From Bacteroidota bacterium (GTDB lineage Bacteria; Bacteroidota; Ignavibacteria; Kryptoniales; JAKASW01): 64,000 nucleotides of DNA. The notes under the pieces are model-generated. The model was not told the origin of the DNA. It ran no database searches and worked only from the letters and a program-made list of their open reading frames with translations. Below, in pieces: positions 47,788 through 56,075 of this stretch; positions within the stretch are counted from its first letter, which is position 1, and each line of letters opens with the position of its first letter. The stretch is taken from contig JAJYIT010000017.1 of NCBI GenBank assembly GCA_021789975.1, forward strand, positions 1 through 64,000, read 5' to 3'. The position numbers and the translations under genes are program-made.

Positions 47788-50565
47788 TTGACCCTTAAAA
47801 AAGTTTTGCCTGCCAATTACTTGTTGCTAATCCTGATGACTTTGTCGCTCTCGGCGAATGCCCAGACATCTCTCGGCGATTTTACTTCCTATTCCGTTCA
47901 AGGCAAGTCCGTTACAGTATATGCGGGCGAATCTGCGTTAAGGTTCGTTTTCTATAGACCCAACCTGGTCCGCGTGGACTTGATGCCGACACTTACAACA
48001 TTGTTCGACAGCTCGCTAGTGGTTGTTCAGGATACTACCACACCGGTCACATTCTCCATATCGGATAGCGATTCTTCGCTTTCGATCACAACGACATCGC
48101 TAAAAATCGTGTGCAATAAATATCCGGTCAGAGTTGCCTACTTTGCCCTAGGTGATCAATTGCTCTTGAAGGAGCCTGCGGCGGCCGGATTTGCGCATTA
48201 TCTAAACCAGAGAATCGCCAACTTCCAGATTCAACCGGATGAACATTTCTACGGGACAGGCGAGAGAGGAATGAGTCTCGACCTGCGCGGTCAATCGTTC
48301 GATAGCTTCAACGAGCAGCACGGCGGTTATCCACAGTACGGAGGAATTCCCGCTACAATGAACGTCAATGTTCCTTTTATTATGTCAACGAATCATTACG
48401 GCATTTATTTCGAAGATACTTACAGCGGACATTTCGACATCGGGAGCTTCAACCCTTCTATCCTTTCTTACATTGCCGACGGCGGCGAGCTTTCATACTA
48501 TTTCATCTACGACCCATCGATGACGAGGGTATTGTCGGATTACACCTGGCTGACGGGAAGGGCAGCGCTCCTTCCTAAATGGGCTTACGGTTACATCCAA
48601 TCCAAGTTTGGGTACCATGATGTCTCGCAGGCTCAAGCCATGCTCGACACGATGCGTGCAAACCGGCTTCCATGCGACGCGATAGTCCTCGATCTGTATT
48701 GGTTCAAGAACATGGGCGACCTATCCTGGAATACGGGCGATTGGCCAAATCCCGACCAGATTACGTCGGACTTCCTATCCAGAGGTTTCAACACAGTAGT
48801 TATTACCGAGCCGTACGTAACGCAGCCCTCTCTGAACTATTCCTACGCGAGCGGGAACGGATACCTGGCGAAGACTGCGTCGGGCCAGACTTACGTGCTT
48901 CCGAATTGGTGGTCGTGTCAATGTAATGCAGGGCTATTGGACATCACCAATCCTGCTGCCCGTAGTTGGTGGTGGAGCAAGTATCAGCAGATATTCTCGA
49001 CTGGAGTCGACGGCTTGTGGATTGATCTTGGTGAACCCGAACGAGATTCGCCTGACATGCAATTCTTCATGGGACCCGACCTGAAAGTACACAACATATA
49101 TGATTTCTTGTGGGCAGAGACTCTGTTCCATGGATTCAGTCAATCCTATCCTGACCGAAGACTTTTCAACTTAACTCGTTCCGGCTACGCCGGCATCCAG
49201 CGGTTTGGGGTCGTCACATGGTCGGGAGACGTTTCGAAGACCTTCCCCGGACTCGCGGTTTAACTACCGTTGCTATTGAACATGGGAATGTCGGGATTAG
49301 CCTATCACAATTCGGACATAGGTGGATTTACAAGCAGCAACAACACGCCGACTACTCCTGAGCTTTACACACGCTGGATGGAATTTGGTGCGTTCTGCCC
49401 GGTGATGAGGGCGCACGGCTATGACGCCCTCGGCGGCACGGAGCCGTGGGTATTTGGGGTATCCACCGAAAACATCGTCCGGAAAATAATCGACCTGCGA
49501 TATTCTCTCTTGCCTTACAATTATACGATGGCACACGAGACTTATGAATCGGGAATTCCGCTGGCAAGACCGCTGGTGTTGGAGTTTTCCGATGACCAAA
49601 ACCTTTACAACGAGAGCTCTGCCTACATGTGGGGTGATGATTTTCTCGTCGCGCCGGTTGTCCAGTCGGGTCAGACATCGAAGAGTTTCTACTTGCCGCA
49701 GGGGAAGTGGATCGATTTTTGGAACGATCTCGTCTACGCCGGCGGGCAGACGATTACCGTGCCGGCCCCCCTCGGCGAGGTGCCGCTTTTCGTCAAAGCC
49801 GGTAGCATAATCCCCATGCAACCGGTGGAACAATACACGGATGAATTTCCCGCCGACACAATTCTGCTCGCCATCTACCCTGGTCAGAATACGACGGACA
49901 ATTTCAACCTCTATGAAGATGACGGCACAACGCTCGACTATCAGAAAGGGGCATTCGCGACAACAAACTTGGCGACTTCAGTCATTGACGACGGAAGCGA
50001 GAACGATATGACTCTTTCAATCGGCCCGTCGGTTGGGGGCTACACCGGGAAGCCGCAACATCGGGTCTATGTGTGCTCGATACATGAAATTTCTTTTTCT
50101 CCAGCGAGTGTCTCTTCGGGGAATTTACCCATTCCGAATCTGCAATCTGAAGATGGACTTGCGACTAACAGCACAGGATACTTTTTTGACTCAACTGCAC
50201 ACATCCTACATGTGAAGATTCAGACTGTGCCAGACAGTTCTTATCAGATCAAAATCGACAGCACGCAAATAAGCAGCATTGACAAGAGTCTGCCGATTCC
50301 GTCCGGCTACCAGCTTGAGCAGAACTATCCGAATCCCTTCAATCCCACCACAACAATTACCTACACGTTGTCATCCAGGCAGAGAGTGACCGTAAGCATC
50401 TACGATGTTCTCGGAAGAAATGTCAGGACTCTTTTCAACGGGGAAGCCACGGCCGGGAAGCATCGTGTCGTATTTGATGGGAGAGGGCTGCCGAGCGGAG
50501 TATATATTTACAGGCTTACCGCAAGACCTTTCGACAAATCTAAAGTCATGGCGCTTGTCAAATAA
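47788..50565 (+). pseudogene. GH31 alpha-glucosidase with T9SS domain, interrupted by in-frame TAA
   Basis: A secreted glycosidase whose two halves lie in one frame, split by a TAA at 49261-49263. Part one (491 residues, TTG start, signal peptide ending at NAQ) has the N-terminal beta domain, the nucleophile segment GLWIDLGEPE and the acid/base segment VTWSGDVSKTFPGLAV. After TAA, LPLLLNMGMSG continues without shift, then the rest of the barrel, DIGGF, the C-terminal beta domains and a sorting domain with QNYPNPFNPTTTI. Homologues have Gln at the stop position, so a single C-to-T change (CAA to TAA) explains the break. The truncated product would lack the last barrel strands and could not be sorted. 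A sequence error or read-through is possible. Confidence 0.9.
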
Positions 50566-50785: not shown

Positions 50786-51829
50786 ATGAATCTACTTGCG
50801 ATAGAGACGTCATGTGATGAGTGTTCGGCGGCGGTTCTCCAGGATGGATCGCTTAAATCGATAGTCATTTCATCGCAGCTCATACACACCGAATACGGCG
50901 GTGTTGTGCCGGAACTTGCCTCTCGTGCTCACATGGAATTGATCGTTCCTGTTGTCGAAGAGGCGCTGATAAAATCAAGTGTAGACAAGGATAATATCGA
51001 AGCAGTCGCAGTGACTTACGGTCCCGGATTGGCGGGATCGTTAATCGTCGGGCTGAGTTTCGCGAAGGCGTTCGCGGCGGCAAGAGGAATCCCTGTCATC
51101 GGCATAAATCACATGGAGGGGCATCTGTACTCCACTTTCCTCGAAGATGACAAGCCGGAGTTCCCGTTTGTTGCTTTAATCGTAAGCGGCGGTCACACGA
51201 TGTTAATACATGTTAGAGAACCGTACTCGCATGAATTAGTTGGACAGACGAGGGACGATGCCGCAGGCGAGGCTTTCGACAAAGTAGCAAAGCTCCTGGG
51301 ACTCGGTTATCCCGGAGGACCGATAATTGACAAGCTTGCAAAAGAGGGAAATGCCCGGGCATTCAGTTTCCCGAAGGCGTTTCTATCAAGGAGTTCCACG
51401 CCTGAGAATGGAGAGACATTTGAATTCAGCTTCTCCGGACTGAAGACCAGCGTGCTTTATCTACTGAGAGATTTGAAATACAATGCCGATGTCCGCGACG
51501 AAAAACTCGTCAGAGACATTTGTGCCTCCTTCCAACGTGCTGTGGTCGATGTCCTGGTTGAGAAGGCAGCAAGGGCTGCTGAGAGATTCTCAGTCAGATC
51601 GATTTCAGTCGCAGGCGGCGTTGCTGCAAACCGTGAATTGCGCGAGACCATCCAGGCGCGTGCCTCTTCCATCGGCGCAAAGGCTCACTTCCCAAGACCT
51701 CTCTACTGTACCGACAATGCCGCGATGATTGGGATGGCAGCTCATTTCAAGATCCTGAAGTATGGGATGGTATCGGATTTGTCATTGAAACCTGTGCCGA
51801 ACCTCCCCCTCATCGCAGAGCCGGCTTAG
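50786..51829 (+). CDS. tsaD: tRNA N6-adenosine threonylcarbamoyltransferase
   Basis: Places the threonylcarbamoyl group on A37 of ANN-decoding tRNAs. The 347-residue protein shows the ASKHA-fold pattern: AIETSCDECSAAV, metal-site HMEGHLYS, VSGGHTMLI, GQTRDDAAGEAFDKVAKLLGLGYPGG, SGLKTSVLY, and AGGVAANRELR. Length and order match TsaD. It is followed after 22 bases by trpA; the two are not normally linked in function. Confidence 0.97.
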   Translation: MNLLAIETSCDECSAAVLQDGSLKSIVISSQLIHTEYGGVVPELASRAHMELIVPVVEEALIKSSVDKDNIEAVAVTYGPGLAGSLIVGLSFAKAFAAARGIPVIGINHMEGHLYSTFLEDDKPEFPFVALIVSGGHTMLIHVREPYSHELVGQTRDDAAGEAFDKVAKLLGLGYPGGPIIDKLAKEGNARAFSFPKAFLSRSSTPENGETFEFSFSGLKTSVLYLLRDLKYNADVRDEKLVRDICASFQRAVVDVLVEKAARAAERFSVRSISVAGGVAANRELRETIQARASSIGAKAHFPRPLYCTDNAAMIGMAAHFKILKYGMVSDLSLKPVPNLPLIAEPA

Positions 51830-51851: not shown

Positions 51852-52664
51852 TTGAACGGAATTCATCTTTTATTTGAAGGGCCGCGCAAAAGCGCGCCGC
51901 GACAAAAGAAATTATTGAGCGCGTATCTGATGCCGGGTTTCCCGCACACCGAATCGACAGTGAAACTTCTCGAAGCCGCCGAAAGTGCGGGCGTCGATTT
52001 TGTAGAATTGGGTGTCCCGTTCAGCGACCCGCTGGCAGATGGCCCTGTTATTCAGAACGCATCACAGATCGCTATCGGAAACGGCATTACTCCAGCAAAA
52101 GTCCTTGAGGCCGTTCGTGATTTTAGAAAGAGATCTCGTCTCCCGATAATTCTTATGGGGTATATGAACTCTTTTCTAAATGGGATGGGTGATGATACTT
52201 TCTTGAGGCTCAGCGAGTCTGGGGTTGACGGCGTCATAATTCCTGATTTGTCTCTCGAAGAATCTGCTGCCATGAAGGAAAAGATTGAAGAAGCAGATAT
52301 CAGCCTGGTCCTTCTCATAGCTCCTACTTCTGGCGATGAACGGATTCAACGGATTGACAATTTCACATCTGACTTCAGCTACTGTGTCTCGGTCACCGGT
52401 GTGACAGGCGCGAGGAAAAATTTAGTCAGCGATGAAGTGGTCGGCTTTCTCGGAAAGGTTAGAAAACTTGCCCGGAAACCCTACGTGGTCGGCTTCGGGA
52501 TTTCAACGCCGGATGCCGCGAGAGATATTTCGAAATACGCGGATGGCATAGTGGTGGGATCTGCTTTGCTGCAGCAAATTGCGGGCGAGCAGCCGGGAAA
52601 AGAAGCCGAAGCAGCCCGTGCTTTCCTTAAATCCCTCAGAGATTCCGTCGACACCGACCGATAA
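51852..52664 (+). CDS. trpA: Tryptophan synthase alpha subunit
   Basis: Cleaves indole-3-glycerol phosphate to indole and glyceraldehyde 3-phosphate. The 270 residues have the catalytic Glu in VDFVELGVPFSDPLADGPVIQ, the catalytic Asp in GVDGVIIPDLSLEE, and the phosphate site GVTGAR...VVGFGISTPDAA. It stands apart from other trp genes and sits between tsaD and the chorismate mutase-MltG gene. The TTG start has an AAGGGA site at a long spacing. Confidence 0.96.
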   Translation: MNGIHLLFEGPRKSAPRQKKLLSAYLMPGFPHTESTVKLLEAAESAGVDFVELGVPFSDPLADGPVIQNASQIAIGNGITPAKVLEAVRDFRKRSRLPIILMGYMNSFLNGMGDDTFLRLSESGVDGVIIPDLSLEESAAMKEKIEEADISLVLLIAPTSGDERIQRIDNFTSDFSYCVSVTGVTGARKNLVSDEVVGFLGKVRKLARKPYVVGFGISTPDAARDISKYADGIVVGSALLQQIAGEQPGKEAEAARAFLKSLRDSVDTDR

Positions 52665-52674
52665 GGTGGCAGCC

Positions 52675-54024
52675 TTGCATGACAATATGAAATGGCTGAG
52701 GAAGCGGATAGACCGCCTCGACAAGCGGATCGTCAAGCTTCTTAACCAGCGAGCTGGCTATGCAGACGAGATAGGAAAGATCAAAGAGAAGCTAGGTATT
52801 GAGGTATATTCGCCTGAGCGAGAGAAACAGGTAATTGAGAATGTAAGCAAGAACAACCCGGGGCCCCTGACCGACGAAGCCGTCCAGCGACTCTACGAGA
52901 GAATCATAGACGAGTCGAGACGTCTGGAGCATGAGAGTTCCGAAGAGCGGAGGTCTTCTTTCGCTGACTATGCCCGCAAACTAAAATTCAAGGATATTCT
53001 TCGCTTGGCTAACCCATTAACCATGGACAAGAAAAACTTGAAGAGGTTTATTGTCGGGATAATCATCTTTATAGTCTTAGTTTCGTTAATCGCCTTTTTT
53101 GTCCCGTACCACTACGCATCGGGAACAGGGACTGTACTTACCATTGACCGTGGAACACCCGCAGACGTCGTGTATTCGGATATCGCTCGCCGGCGTCTGA
53201 TATCGGATGGATTCCTCTTTAAAATACTTGCAAAAACATTTGGAGTGGATCATCGGATCCAGGCAGGCAAATACCTCTTCGAAGGGCTTTATTCGGACTA
53301 CGATGTTCTGCGTACAATTTCTTCCGGGAAAAGCAACCTTCTGGTACCTGTTACGATTCCACCGGGTCTGACGGTGCGCCAGATTGCGGGGATTTATCAC
53401 CGGAAACTAGGCGTTGACTCCGTAGAATTCACCCGTGAGGCTCTTGGTGATTCTTTGGCAGCCTTGCTAAGCATACCGTCGACTAACCTCGAAGGGTATT
53501 TGTTTCCGCAGACATATGATTTCTACTACGGCACCGATGCCGGTGAGATAATCCGGAGAATGGTCGGGGAGTTCAATGGTTTCTTTAACGATTCACTGAA
53601 ATTACGTGCGCATGAAACAGGGTATTCGATCAACGAAATTATGGAGATGGCATCGATAGTTGAGGCCGAGGCAAGGGTAGATTCCGAGAGGGCCACGATT
53701 GCCAGCGTCTACTACAACAGGTTGCGATTAGGGATGCCGCTGGATGCGGACCCGACCATTGAATACGCTCTAAACGAACACAGGCGATTGTATTTCAAGG
53801 ATTTGAAGATCGAATCGCCCTTCAATACATATACTCATGCGGGTTTGCCCCCGACGCCAATCTGCAATCCCAGTGGGAAATCAATCCTCGCTGCACTGTA
53901 CCCCGATACCACGCGATACCTGTACTTCGTCGCCAACGGGAGCGGCGGGCACAGGTTCAGCGTTACCTTTGGCCAGCACAAGCGTGAAATCAGGGAATAC
54001 CGCAGGTCGTTGATGAGAGAATAG
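52675..54024 (+). CDS. mltG: AroQ chorismate mutase fused to MltG-type endolytic murein transglycosylase
   Basis: A 449-residue protein that joins two usually separate enzymes. Residues about 5-90 are an AroQ chorismate mutase, and residues equivalent to the E. coli active site are kept: R9, R26, K37, R49, E50, S81, with E85 in place of Gln88. The equivalent of Asp48 is Ser46. After a charged linker comes one membrane helix (about 123-143), then an MltG/YceG domain that cuts nascent glycan strands in the periplasm: VPVTIPPGLTVRQIA, LEGYLFPQTYDF, the catalytic E330 in ASIVEAEA, NRLRLGMPLDADPTIEYAL, and the AGLPPTPICNPS end motif. The helix polarity leaves the mutase inside. The TTG start lies five bases after AAGGTGG; ATG 52687 is an alternative. 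An internal ATG at 53023 could start MltG alone but has no clear ribosome binding site. Confidence 0.88.
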   Translation: MHDNMKWLRKRIDRLDKRIVKLLNQRAGYADEIGKIKEKLGIEVYSPEREKQVIENVSKNNPGPLTDEAVQRLYERIIDESRRLEHESSEERRSSFADYARKLKFKDILRLANPLTMDKKNLKRFIVGIIIFIVLVSLIAFFVPYHYASGTGTVLTIDRGTPADVVYSDIARRRLISDGFLFKILAKTFGVDHRIQAGKYLFEGLYSDYDVLRTISSGKSNLLVPVTIPPGLTVRQIAGIYHRKLGVDSVEFTREALGDSLAALLSIPSTNLEGYLFPQTYDFYYGTDAGEIIRRMVGEFNGFFNDSLKLRAHETGYSINEIMEMASIVEAEARVDSERATIASVYYNRLRLGMPLDADPTIEYALNEHRRLYFKDLKIESPFNTYTHAGLPPTPICNPSGKSILAALYPDTTRYLYFVANGSGGHRFSVTFGQHKREIREYRRSLMRE

Positions 54025-54031
54025 ATAGAAA

Positions 54032-55474
54032 ATGCTTTTGCTTTTGCTGCTTCAGCTGAGGTTGAGGCAAATGGTTGGCGGGGAGGGGGCGAAGGGTGTA
54101 ATCAAGTTCTTCCTGCCCTACTTGCTTGTCGGATTTTTTCTGGCGCTTACATACAGCGGTCTTAAATGGCCTGACGTGATGCACCAGCTTGAAATTGTCG
54201 GGATCGGCATAGCACTTTTCACTTCGATAGCAGAAACCCGAAAGCTTTTTTACACCGGCGGAGATACGGAAGACTTCTACTTTGTCCAGCCGAATTTCCT
54301 TTTTAGGGCGACGTTTGCGTGCGCAATCTTTGTTCTAAATATTTCTTTGGCAATATCGATATTCCTTCCGGTAATTCTGCTGTCCTCCCCTGTTCTTACA
54401 TCTCCCGGTGAGATTGCGGCAGGGGTCCTCTCTGTGGCATTCCTCTCTTCTTCTGCCTATCTATTTCTGCTGGCTGCGGTTTCAGTCGCTGGAAGAAAGG
54501 TCGCAAACATATCGCTGACGGGCATCCAGATCGCTATGGCGTTGCTTCTGCTTGGATTACTTCCGTTGACAACCGACACGGGCCTCGGGGGCTGGGTGAC
54601 TTCGGATTTGAGGATACCGTTGATAAGCTTCATTGTGATTTCGCTGGTGTTTGTATCCTTCCCCATACCGGAAGCGCTGGTGAGTAAACTTGCATACATA
54701 GATCAGGTTAAGAGTGTCGACCTTGTGAGGGTGGTGAATTCATTAAAGACACCTGCCTTCATCAGGTCATCTGAAGAAGAAGCAGGTTTCGTCTTCGTTC
54801 TATCCGGCATCATAAGAGACCCGGCATTCAGATTGTCTTCCATCGGAGTCGGTGCCACACCTATAATGGTCGCCATCTACTGGTCGCTGCGAAGAATCCC
54901 GGTGATGACTTTCTCCATGCCATACGCGATATTGAGCACCGACTTGGCGGCGCCGTTTGCCTCAATTGTGGTGTCCGGGGTCATCGCTCACTATTTCATT
55001 TCTCAGAATCTTGTAAGTTCTCGGAACCACGAAGCGAAATGGATTCTCGAATCTGCCGGAAATTTTCAGAGAGGAAAGTTTGTTCTGGGTGCACGAAAGG
55101 CGCTTCTCTTAACGATCCACGTCCCGATGACTTTGGGGATCTTCCTGTGCCTGGTATTCACCAGCCCGCTCATTGTCGCCATCGCAGCTACCGCCACTTT
55201 CTATTTCCTCTGCCATGTCGCCGCCAGTTGGTTCTCGGCAATGCAGACGAACCTTCCATTTACTCTCCCCTTTTCGAGGGTCGGTGCGACGGAAATGATC
55301 AATCTTGTATTCATGATGGTTTATTCGGCACTCGTCGTGTTCGCAATTTACTTCTCAATCGGGCAGCCTCTGGAGCTTTTGATGCTTAACGTTTTTGCGG
55401 TTATCTTAATAAGTCTTCTTGAGTTTTATTCATCTTCAATTGTGAGTAAAAGGGCGAGGCTGAGTGCTCGATAG
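54032..55474 (+). CDS. Multi-pass membrane protein, unassigned (ABC-2 permease-like)
   Basis: A 480-residue integral membrane protein with about 11 hydrophobic segments. No catalytic motif is visible. A short cytosolic stretch with TGGDTEDFYFVQPNF and a long central loop (about 225-265) divide it. The pattern recalls permease subunits of ABC-2 type exporters, but there is no adjacent ATPase gene. It starts 7 bases after the MltG fusion gene and overlaps ubiX by 11 bases, so it is part of the same transcription unit. Confidence 0.72.
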   Translation: MLLLLLLQLRLRQMVGGEGAKGVIKFFLPYLLVGFFLALTYSGLKWPDVMHQLEIVGIGIALFTSIAETRKLFYTGGDTEDFYFVQPNFLFRATFACAIFVLNISLAISIFLPVILLSSPVLTSPGEIAAGVLSVAFLSSSAYLFLLAAVSVAGRKVANISLTGIQIAMALLLLGLLPLTTDTGLGGWVTSDLRIPLISFIVISLVFVSFPIPEALVSKLAYIDQVKSVDLVRVVNSLKTPAFIRSSEEEAGFVFVLSGIIRDPAFRLSSIGVGATPIMVAIYWSLRRIPVMTFSMPYAILSTDLAAPFASIVVSGVIAHYFISQNLVSSRNHEAKWILESAGNFQRGKFVLGARKALLLTIHVPMTLGIFLCLVFTSPLIVAIAATATFYFLCHVAASWFSAMQTNLPFTLPFSRVGATEMINLVFMMVYSALVVFAIYFSIGQPLELLMLNVFAVILISLLEFYSSSIVSKRARLSAR

Positions 55475-56075
55475 AACGAAAAGGATAATTATCGGAATAA
55501 CCGGAGCGAGCGGTGCGCTGTATGCCCTTCACACAATAAAAGCACTCCTTTCCAACGGAGTTGAAGTCCATCTTGTCATATCGGAATACGGTGCATACGT
55601 TTTAGAAAATGAGACGGACTTCTCGCTGAAGGGGAAGAATGTTCTCGACAGCTTCCGGGAAAAGTTTGGCGATGAAGTCTCCGGCGGGAATATCGTTAAG
55701 TACAGCAATAAAGATCTTGCCGCGGAAATCTCAAGCGGGTCGTTCAAAACTGATGGTATGGCAATCGTCCCTTGTTCTATGAAGACTCTGGCAGGTGTGG
55801 CGCAGGGATTCGCAGGGAGTTTGATTGAGCGTGCGGCAGATGTCACTTTGAAAGAAGGACGAAAGTTGGTCGTAGTTCCGCGCGAGACCCCGCTGAATAA
55901 AATCCATCTTAAGAACATGCTCGCGGTAGCCGATGCCGGTGCTCATATCCTTCCGGCGATGCCCGCTTTCTACCAAAAACCTGCGACCATAGATGACCTT
56001 GCTGATTTTATGGCAGGCAGGATTCTCTCACTGTTCGATATCGAAGCTGAGCTGTTCGAGCCGTGGCGGAAGTGA
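55464..56075 (+). CDS. ubiX: UbiX-family flavin prenyltransferase
   Basis: Makes prenylated FMN, the cofactor of UbiD-type decarboxylases. The 203 residues keep the FMN site IGITGASGALYA, the MAIVPCSMKTLAGVAQGF segment, and VVVPRETPLNKIHLKNM with the phosphate-binding Arg, plus the C-terminal AFYQKP. The GTG start lies inside the end of the preceding gene, implying coupling. A UbiD partner is not in the window; a role in menaquinone synthesis is plausible given the UbiA-family gene at 39.8 kb. Confidence 0.94.
   Translation: MLDRTKRIIIGITGASGALYALHTIKALLSNGVEVHLVISEYGAYVLENETDFSLKGKNVLDSFREKFGDEVSGGNIVKYSNKDLAAEISSGSFKTDGMAIVPCSMKTLAGVAQGFAGSLIERAADVTLKEGRKLVVVPRETPLNKIHLKNMLAVADAGAHILPAMPAFYQKPATIDDLADFMAGRILSLFDIEAELFEPWRK

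Follow-up and report, generated by a model that had tools for sequence, protein, structure and literature searches.

In the window, a stretch of 64,000 nucleotides of Bacteroidota DNA, one uninterrupted reading frame encodes both a complete chorismate mutase (CM) of the AroQ type and a complete domain of the endolytic transglycosylase MltG, with a linker and a single transmembrane helix between them. This architecture had been proposed in a first-pass annotation made from the letters alone, and it was borne out by Pfam, which finds both domains in one protein. We consider it fairly probable that the gene encodes a bifunctional protein which arose by the merging of a conserved, co-translated gene pair and which carries an active, membrane-tethered CM; the CM would be dimeric, and its active site would not communicate with that of MltG.

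Architecture of the fused protein

The fused gene, aroQ-mltG, occupies positions 52687-54024 of the forward strand and encodes 445 residues from the ATG at 52687, followed by a stop codon. The first-pass annotation had placed the start at 52675, where the codon is TTG (449 residues, P0001); the true start is unsure, since relatives in the genus keep the Met of ATG 52687 and a GTG at 52666 is possible too. A Pfam search, which had been proposed as a check, matched both PF01817 (CM_2) and PF02618 (YceG). These are the only Pfam domains of the protein, a prephenate dehydratase (PDT), prephenate dehydrogenase (PDH) or DAHP synthase partner domain being absent, and in NCBIfam both CM_P2 and TIGR00247 exceed their cut-offs. 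The AlphaFold2 model of the fusion protein has a mean pLDDT of 92.9 (alignment of 46 rows), and when its halves were compared with solved CM and MltG structures, including E. coli 1ecm and 2r1f, both folds were matched.

The AroQ-type CM domain lies at positions 52696-52932 (+). CM_2 aligns with residues 8-85 over profile positions 1-79 of 80 (E = 1.2e-25; 89.9 bits against a cut-off of 27), and TIGR01807 scores 70.5 on this half against a cut-off of 69.55. In an alignment with PheA and TyrA of E. coli MG1655, all of the residues of the E. coli mutase (EcCM) active site that the first-pass annotation had named are present, R11 corresponding to R9 of the fusion, R28 to R26, K39 to K37, R51 to R49, E52 to E50 and S84 to S81. 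As also noted there, the position of Q88 is occupied by a glutamate (Glu85), and the CM of E. coli TyrA likewise has Glu there. A position that had gone unmentioned, D48 of EcCM, is Ser46 in the fusion and Val in TyrA, and is variable across the family. The modelled half adopts the three-helix AroQ fold (helices 2-36, 43-55 and 63-107) and superimposes on the Thermus CM 2d8d with an rmsd of 0.5-0.7 Å and on 1ecm with 1.3-1.6 Å; 5gmu was matched too, and the nearest solved relatives are the CM domains of DAHP synthase-CM proteins. For pairs of fused genes, pN/pS in the CM half is 0.04-0.10, which indicates that this half is under strong purifying selection. The kept active-site residues and the low pN/pS together led us to reject a degenerate, inactive CM.

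The MltG (YceG) endolytic transglycosylase domain (53137-53994, +) is equally complete: YceG aligns with residues 155-440 over profile positions 1-274 of 275 (E = 1.4e-79), TIGR00247 scores 243 bits against a cut-off of 103.4, and the modelled half matches Acinetobacter baumannii MltG 8yq7 with a TM score of 0.89, normalised by the target, as well as 4iiw and 2r1f. The claim that the catalytic glutamate is kept was upheld, the motif ASIxExE being present as ASIVEAE (E330 and E332) with E332 aligned to the later of the two Glu in the E. coli motif ASIIEKE. The Glu332 codon (53668-53670, +) aligns with residue 218 of E. coli MltG, the catalytic Glu of that enzyme, and Glu332 is invariant in alignment A1. 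The pN/pS of this half is 0.10-0.16 for pairs of fused genes.

A transmembrane helix is predicted at residues 125-143 (53047-53103, +) from a hydropathy of 3.33, a continuous helix in the model and a positive-inside pattern, with six Lys or Arg in the 20 residues before the segment and one after it. This single strong segment and its flanking charges support the topology predicted in the first-pass annotation, in which the CM would be cytoplasmic and MltG periplasmic. Like the E. coli MltG (2r1f) and the MltGs 8yq7 and 4iiw, the window protein thus has a single N-terminal membrane helix, a full YceG domain and the ASIxExE motif; unlike E. coli MltG, which has few residues before the helix, it would carry an enzyme domain in the cytoplasm. 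Between the CM and the helix lies a variable, presumably cytoplasmic linker of about 35 residues (52951-53046, +), which is the site of a later frameshift that splits the gene in relatives. The linker has a pN/pS of 0.28-0.73 for pairs of fused genes, and from these high values beside the low ones of CM and MltG it follows that both enzymes are kept while the linker is merely a spacer.

The chorismate mutase complement of the genome and the order

The genome to which the window belongs is 98% complete and yields a single CM_2 match (E = 2.7e-26), which is the CM half of the fusion. A check for a separate aroQ or pheA-type CM, suggested in the first-pass annotation, found none, nor was an AroH-type CM found in this 98% complete genome, and a redundant second CM is thereby ruled out for it. 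MltG is also single-copy, the fusion giving the only PF02618 match (E = 6.7e-80). One PDT and one PDH are encoded at other places in the genome, and the translations of both are free of any attached CM domain. Across the order, PDT is present in 20 of 20 species, in frames of 278-342 residues save for a second, CM-bearing PheA-type copy in one genome, and 18 of the 19 CM-bearing species have exactly one CM, which is fused to mltG or adjoins it. The genome that departs from this pattern, G017 of the sister family, has a second CM in a 363-residue PheA-like CM-PDT frame (G017:C3:18681-19451) besides its fused CM-MltG; within the order, a redundant CM was seen there alone.

Prephenate is used, as judged by the PDT of all 20 species, but apart from the second CM of G017 it has no visible source other than the CM at mltG. 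A sole detected CM accompanied by separate PDT and PDH genes leads us to conclude that the CM half is probably the housekeeping CM and very probably the source of the cell's prephenate.

Gene neighbourhood, fusion and splitting of the aroQ-mltG pair

The fused gene is part of a packed series that runs from tsaD (50786-51829, +; TIGR03723), a conserved neighbour upstream of the aroQ-mltG pair, through trpA (51852-52664, +; PF00290, E = 7.3e-74), aroQ-mltG and a gene for a multi-pass membrane protein of 480 residues (54032-55474, +) to ubiX, which encodes a UbiX-family flavin prenyltransferase (55464-56075, +; TIGR00421 and NF004685 over cut-off) and overlaps the preceding gene. The membrane protein, which has no Pfam, NCBIfam or PHROG match, is conserved in the genus, where its gene directly follows mltG in loci L003-L014; it was seen in this position once outside the genus (L063). 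The order tsaD-(trpA)-CM-mltG was found in many relatives. The first-pass annotation had seen an aromatic context in the presence of trpA, which does directly precede the fusion, but this argument is weak because trpA is missing from the tsaD-CM-mltG series of most relatives; it intervenes between tsaD and the CM in the window's order and in a few other loci. Upstream of the series, an alpha-glucosidase-like gene (47788-50565, +; GH31-like by reading) with a C-terminal sorting-type domain contains an in-frame TAA at 49261-49263, and its frame continues on both sides of this codon, for which a pseudogene, a sequencing error and readthrough are candidate explanations.

Fifteen of the 20 species of the order, among them every one of the seven in the second family (f2), have intact fused frames. 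Of the other five, four have separate genes that overlap or abut, and in the remaining one a contig ends inside mltG. An open frame in 15 species of two families means that the fusion is neither an assembly error nor a product of chance, and no stop or frameshift separates the domains there. An assembly or frameshift artefact is further ruled out by independent fusions elsewhere, one of them in the single-contig genome G182.

The class sample comprised 217 genomes, and a CM_2 domain is present in 111 of them. At least 55 of these 111 carry aroQ immediately before mltG and in the same orientation, the pair forming one frame in 18 cases (15 in the window's order, and G156, G168 and G182 of family f22) and separate genes in 37. 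The other CMs of the class comprise 57 in other long frames and 10 standalone ones that are not placed at mltG among the matches listed (5 of the 10 not judged). The pair is also found in records of Chlorobiaceae, Chloroherpetonaceae (Chlorobiales), Calditrichota and Rhodothermales, where the genes usually abut or overlap; the adjacency of aroQ and mltG is thus conserved across several lineages of the FCB group. The homologues are not always two proteins, given the fused frame in 15 species of the order, although many of them are separate adjacent genes. The pair is a single in-frame stop short of fusion in many other families, among them f34 (phylum) and f6 (class), where this arrangement is frequent. 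At loci L022-L026 and in f34 the genes abut in this manner with exactly one stop (TAA, TAG or TGA) in dozens of genomes, and are one substitution away from fusion. Readthrough of a leaky stop in f34 and f6 was considered and rejected, the stops being of all three types with no sign of a conserved context.

On a tree built from the CM and MltG domains, with the linker left out, the fused or split state changes at least six times. Fused forms occur in the window's order and on separate branches of the Ignavibacteria (L039/L042; G156; G168/G182), and the pair appears to have fused about four times. In the genus of the window, neither the fused genes (p-AU = 1e-4) nor the four split genes (p-AU = 0.018) form a single clade. 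In three of the latter, which belong to one clade of three species (G003, G010 and G012), the linker is shorter by 4 nt and mltG starts at an ATG overlapping the CM stop or just past it, a solid case of real secondary separation by a small linker frameshift. The split in G006 (L013) is doubtful because of one extra nucleotide at a stretch of eight T, the very point at which the CM frame departs from the MltG frame; it may reflect a sequencing error, or slippage that would restore the fused frame, rather than real fission. As an internal control, we compared reading frames across the locus: one frame is common to CM and mltG in 18 of 45 loci, and a shared frame was not found for tsaD-trpA (0/20), trpA-CM (0/20), tsaD-CM (0/36), tsaD-mltG (0/46) or mltG-membrane protein (0/14), a set of pairs that includes some which are not direct neighbours. 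The splitting of the fused gene inside the genus means that the tether is not essential there, while its repeated fusion suggests that joining may be useful. About four origins, together with the lack of fusion of any other adjacent pair at the locus, hint, as a point against the reading preferred below, that the joining of CM and MltG may be favoured and not neutral.

Explanations of the fusion

In the reading that we prefer, the N-terminal AroQ domain would convert chorismate to prephenate in the cytoplasm, the separate PDT and PDH would carry prephenate on to Phe and Tyr, and the C-terminal MltG would cleave glycan strands on the periplasmic side. Loss of the aroQ stop codon in a conserved, tightly packed aroQ-mltG pair would have given rise to the fusion, and the gain would be 1:1 co-production of the two enzymes and a membrane-anchored CM. 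AroQ CMs are dimers. EcCM consists of two intertwined protomers (PMC10520331), and a fusion that dimerises in this way would pair two MltG chains. Signalling between the two active sites would not be needed to explain the data: since no other CM was found in the genome, plain housekeeping synthesis of prephenate accounts for its conservation. The moonlighting or regulatory coupling suggested in the first-pass annotation did not gain support, given a sole CM, many homologues that are separate adjacent genes, and a gene that was split again inside the genus.

A functional coupling of the two enzymes is the strongest of the other explanations, although we regard it as unlikely. Here the CM would be a sensor or dimerisation switch through which the shikimate state, as bound chorismate or prephenate, tunes glycan release, or its dimer would hold MltG in a working form. 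Such a role would fit a pair that is kept in several phyla and has fused several times independently while other neighbour pairs at the locus never did, and it would also fit the kinship of the CM half with DAHP synthase-CM proteins, in which CM domains act as allosteric sensors. A further point in its favour is that in E. coli MG1655 (L148) another chorismate-branch gene, pabC, ends 2 bp upstream of mltG. PabC (aminodeoxychorismate lyase), however, is a separate and unrelated enzyme of folate synthesis, and the resemblance may be a coincidence; the E. coli MltG structure 2r1f was itself deposited as a 'predicted aminodeoxychorismate lyase'. Moreover, the covalent link was dispensable where the gene split inside the genus, the almost unconstrained linker sequence leaves no conserved signalling helix, and most genomes of the class have, among the matches listed, an mltG without an adjoining CM. 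Control of MltG through shikimate flux is conceivable yet unsupported, and slightly less credence still is due to the specific version in which the CM half serves in the cytoplasm as both sensor and dimeriser, the level of chorismate or prephenate sets strand release in the periplasm, and repeated fusion is the evolutionary trace of this control.

Alternatively, the fusion could be a neutral accident, stops coming and going between two genes that overlap or lie in one frame, with stoichiometry and position irrelevant. The frequent occurrence of the two genes in one frame, a single stop apart, the reversions in both directions on the tree and the freedom of the linker to vary are all in keeping with this. 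We nonetheless judge it improbable, because an unconstrained linker would readily gather stops or indels and yet the fused frame has persisted in the whole of f2 and most of f1, and because the other adjacent pairs never fused. Least credible of all is that one frame yields two proteins, internal initiation or proteolysis freeing MltG and the fusion polypeptide being minor: the linker is exposed and variable, an ATG at residue 117 of the window gene precedes the helix and AGGAG precedes ATG 93 in G007 and G002, but the 15 fused genes have no conserved start position within the linker, and the ATG of the window gene is not preceded by a Shine-Dalgarno-like sequence, on which this group may not rely.

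Fusions of CM with pathway enzymes (PheA, TyrA and DAHP synthase-CM) are well known. As in these bifunctional proteins, an N-terminal AroQ domain is here joined to a second enzyme, and by sequence and fold the window CM is a normal AroQ domain nearest to the DAHP synthase type. Their partners, in contrast, catalyse neighbouring steps of the same pathway, whereas the partner in the window is a cell-wall enzyme placed in the periplasm, so that substrate channelling would be impossible across the membrane. Exported fusions of CM with cyclohexadienyl dehydratase (CM-CDT) were described in 2023 (PMC10520331), and the passages on CM in a systematic survey of fusions list it only with a partner of the pathway-enzyme type. 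A link between the shikimate branch point and glycan-strand release was not known to the first-pass annotation, and none between CM and MltG was described in the open-access literature that we searched; the CM-MltG fusion appears to be undescribed.

The fusion would thus add a new, unrelated partner to those of AroQ, for which plain co-production is at present a sufficient explanation. It also calls for caution, as a Rosetta-stone argument would deduce a link between pathways from a fusion that has been undone at least once. Fused and split forms of the gene, which occur naturally in a single genus, provide material to ask whether the fusion does more than ensure co-production, in an order of bacteria whose apparently sole CM would be placed at the membrane and joined to an enzyme that serves an unrelated process.
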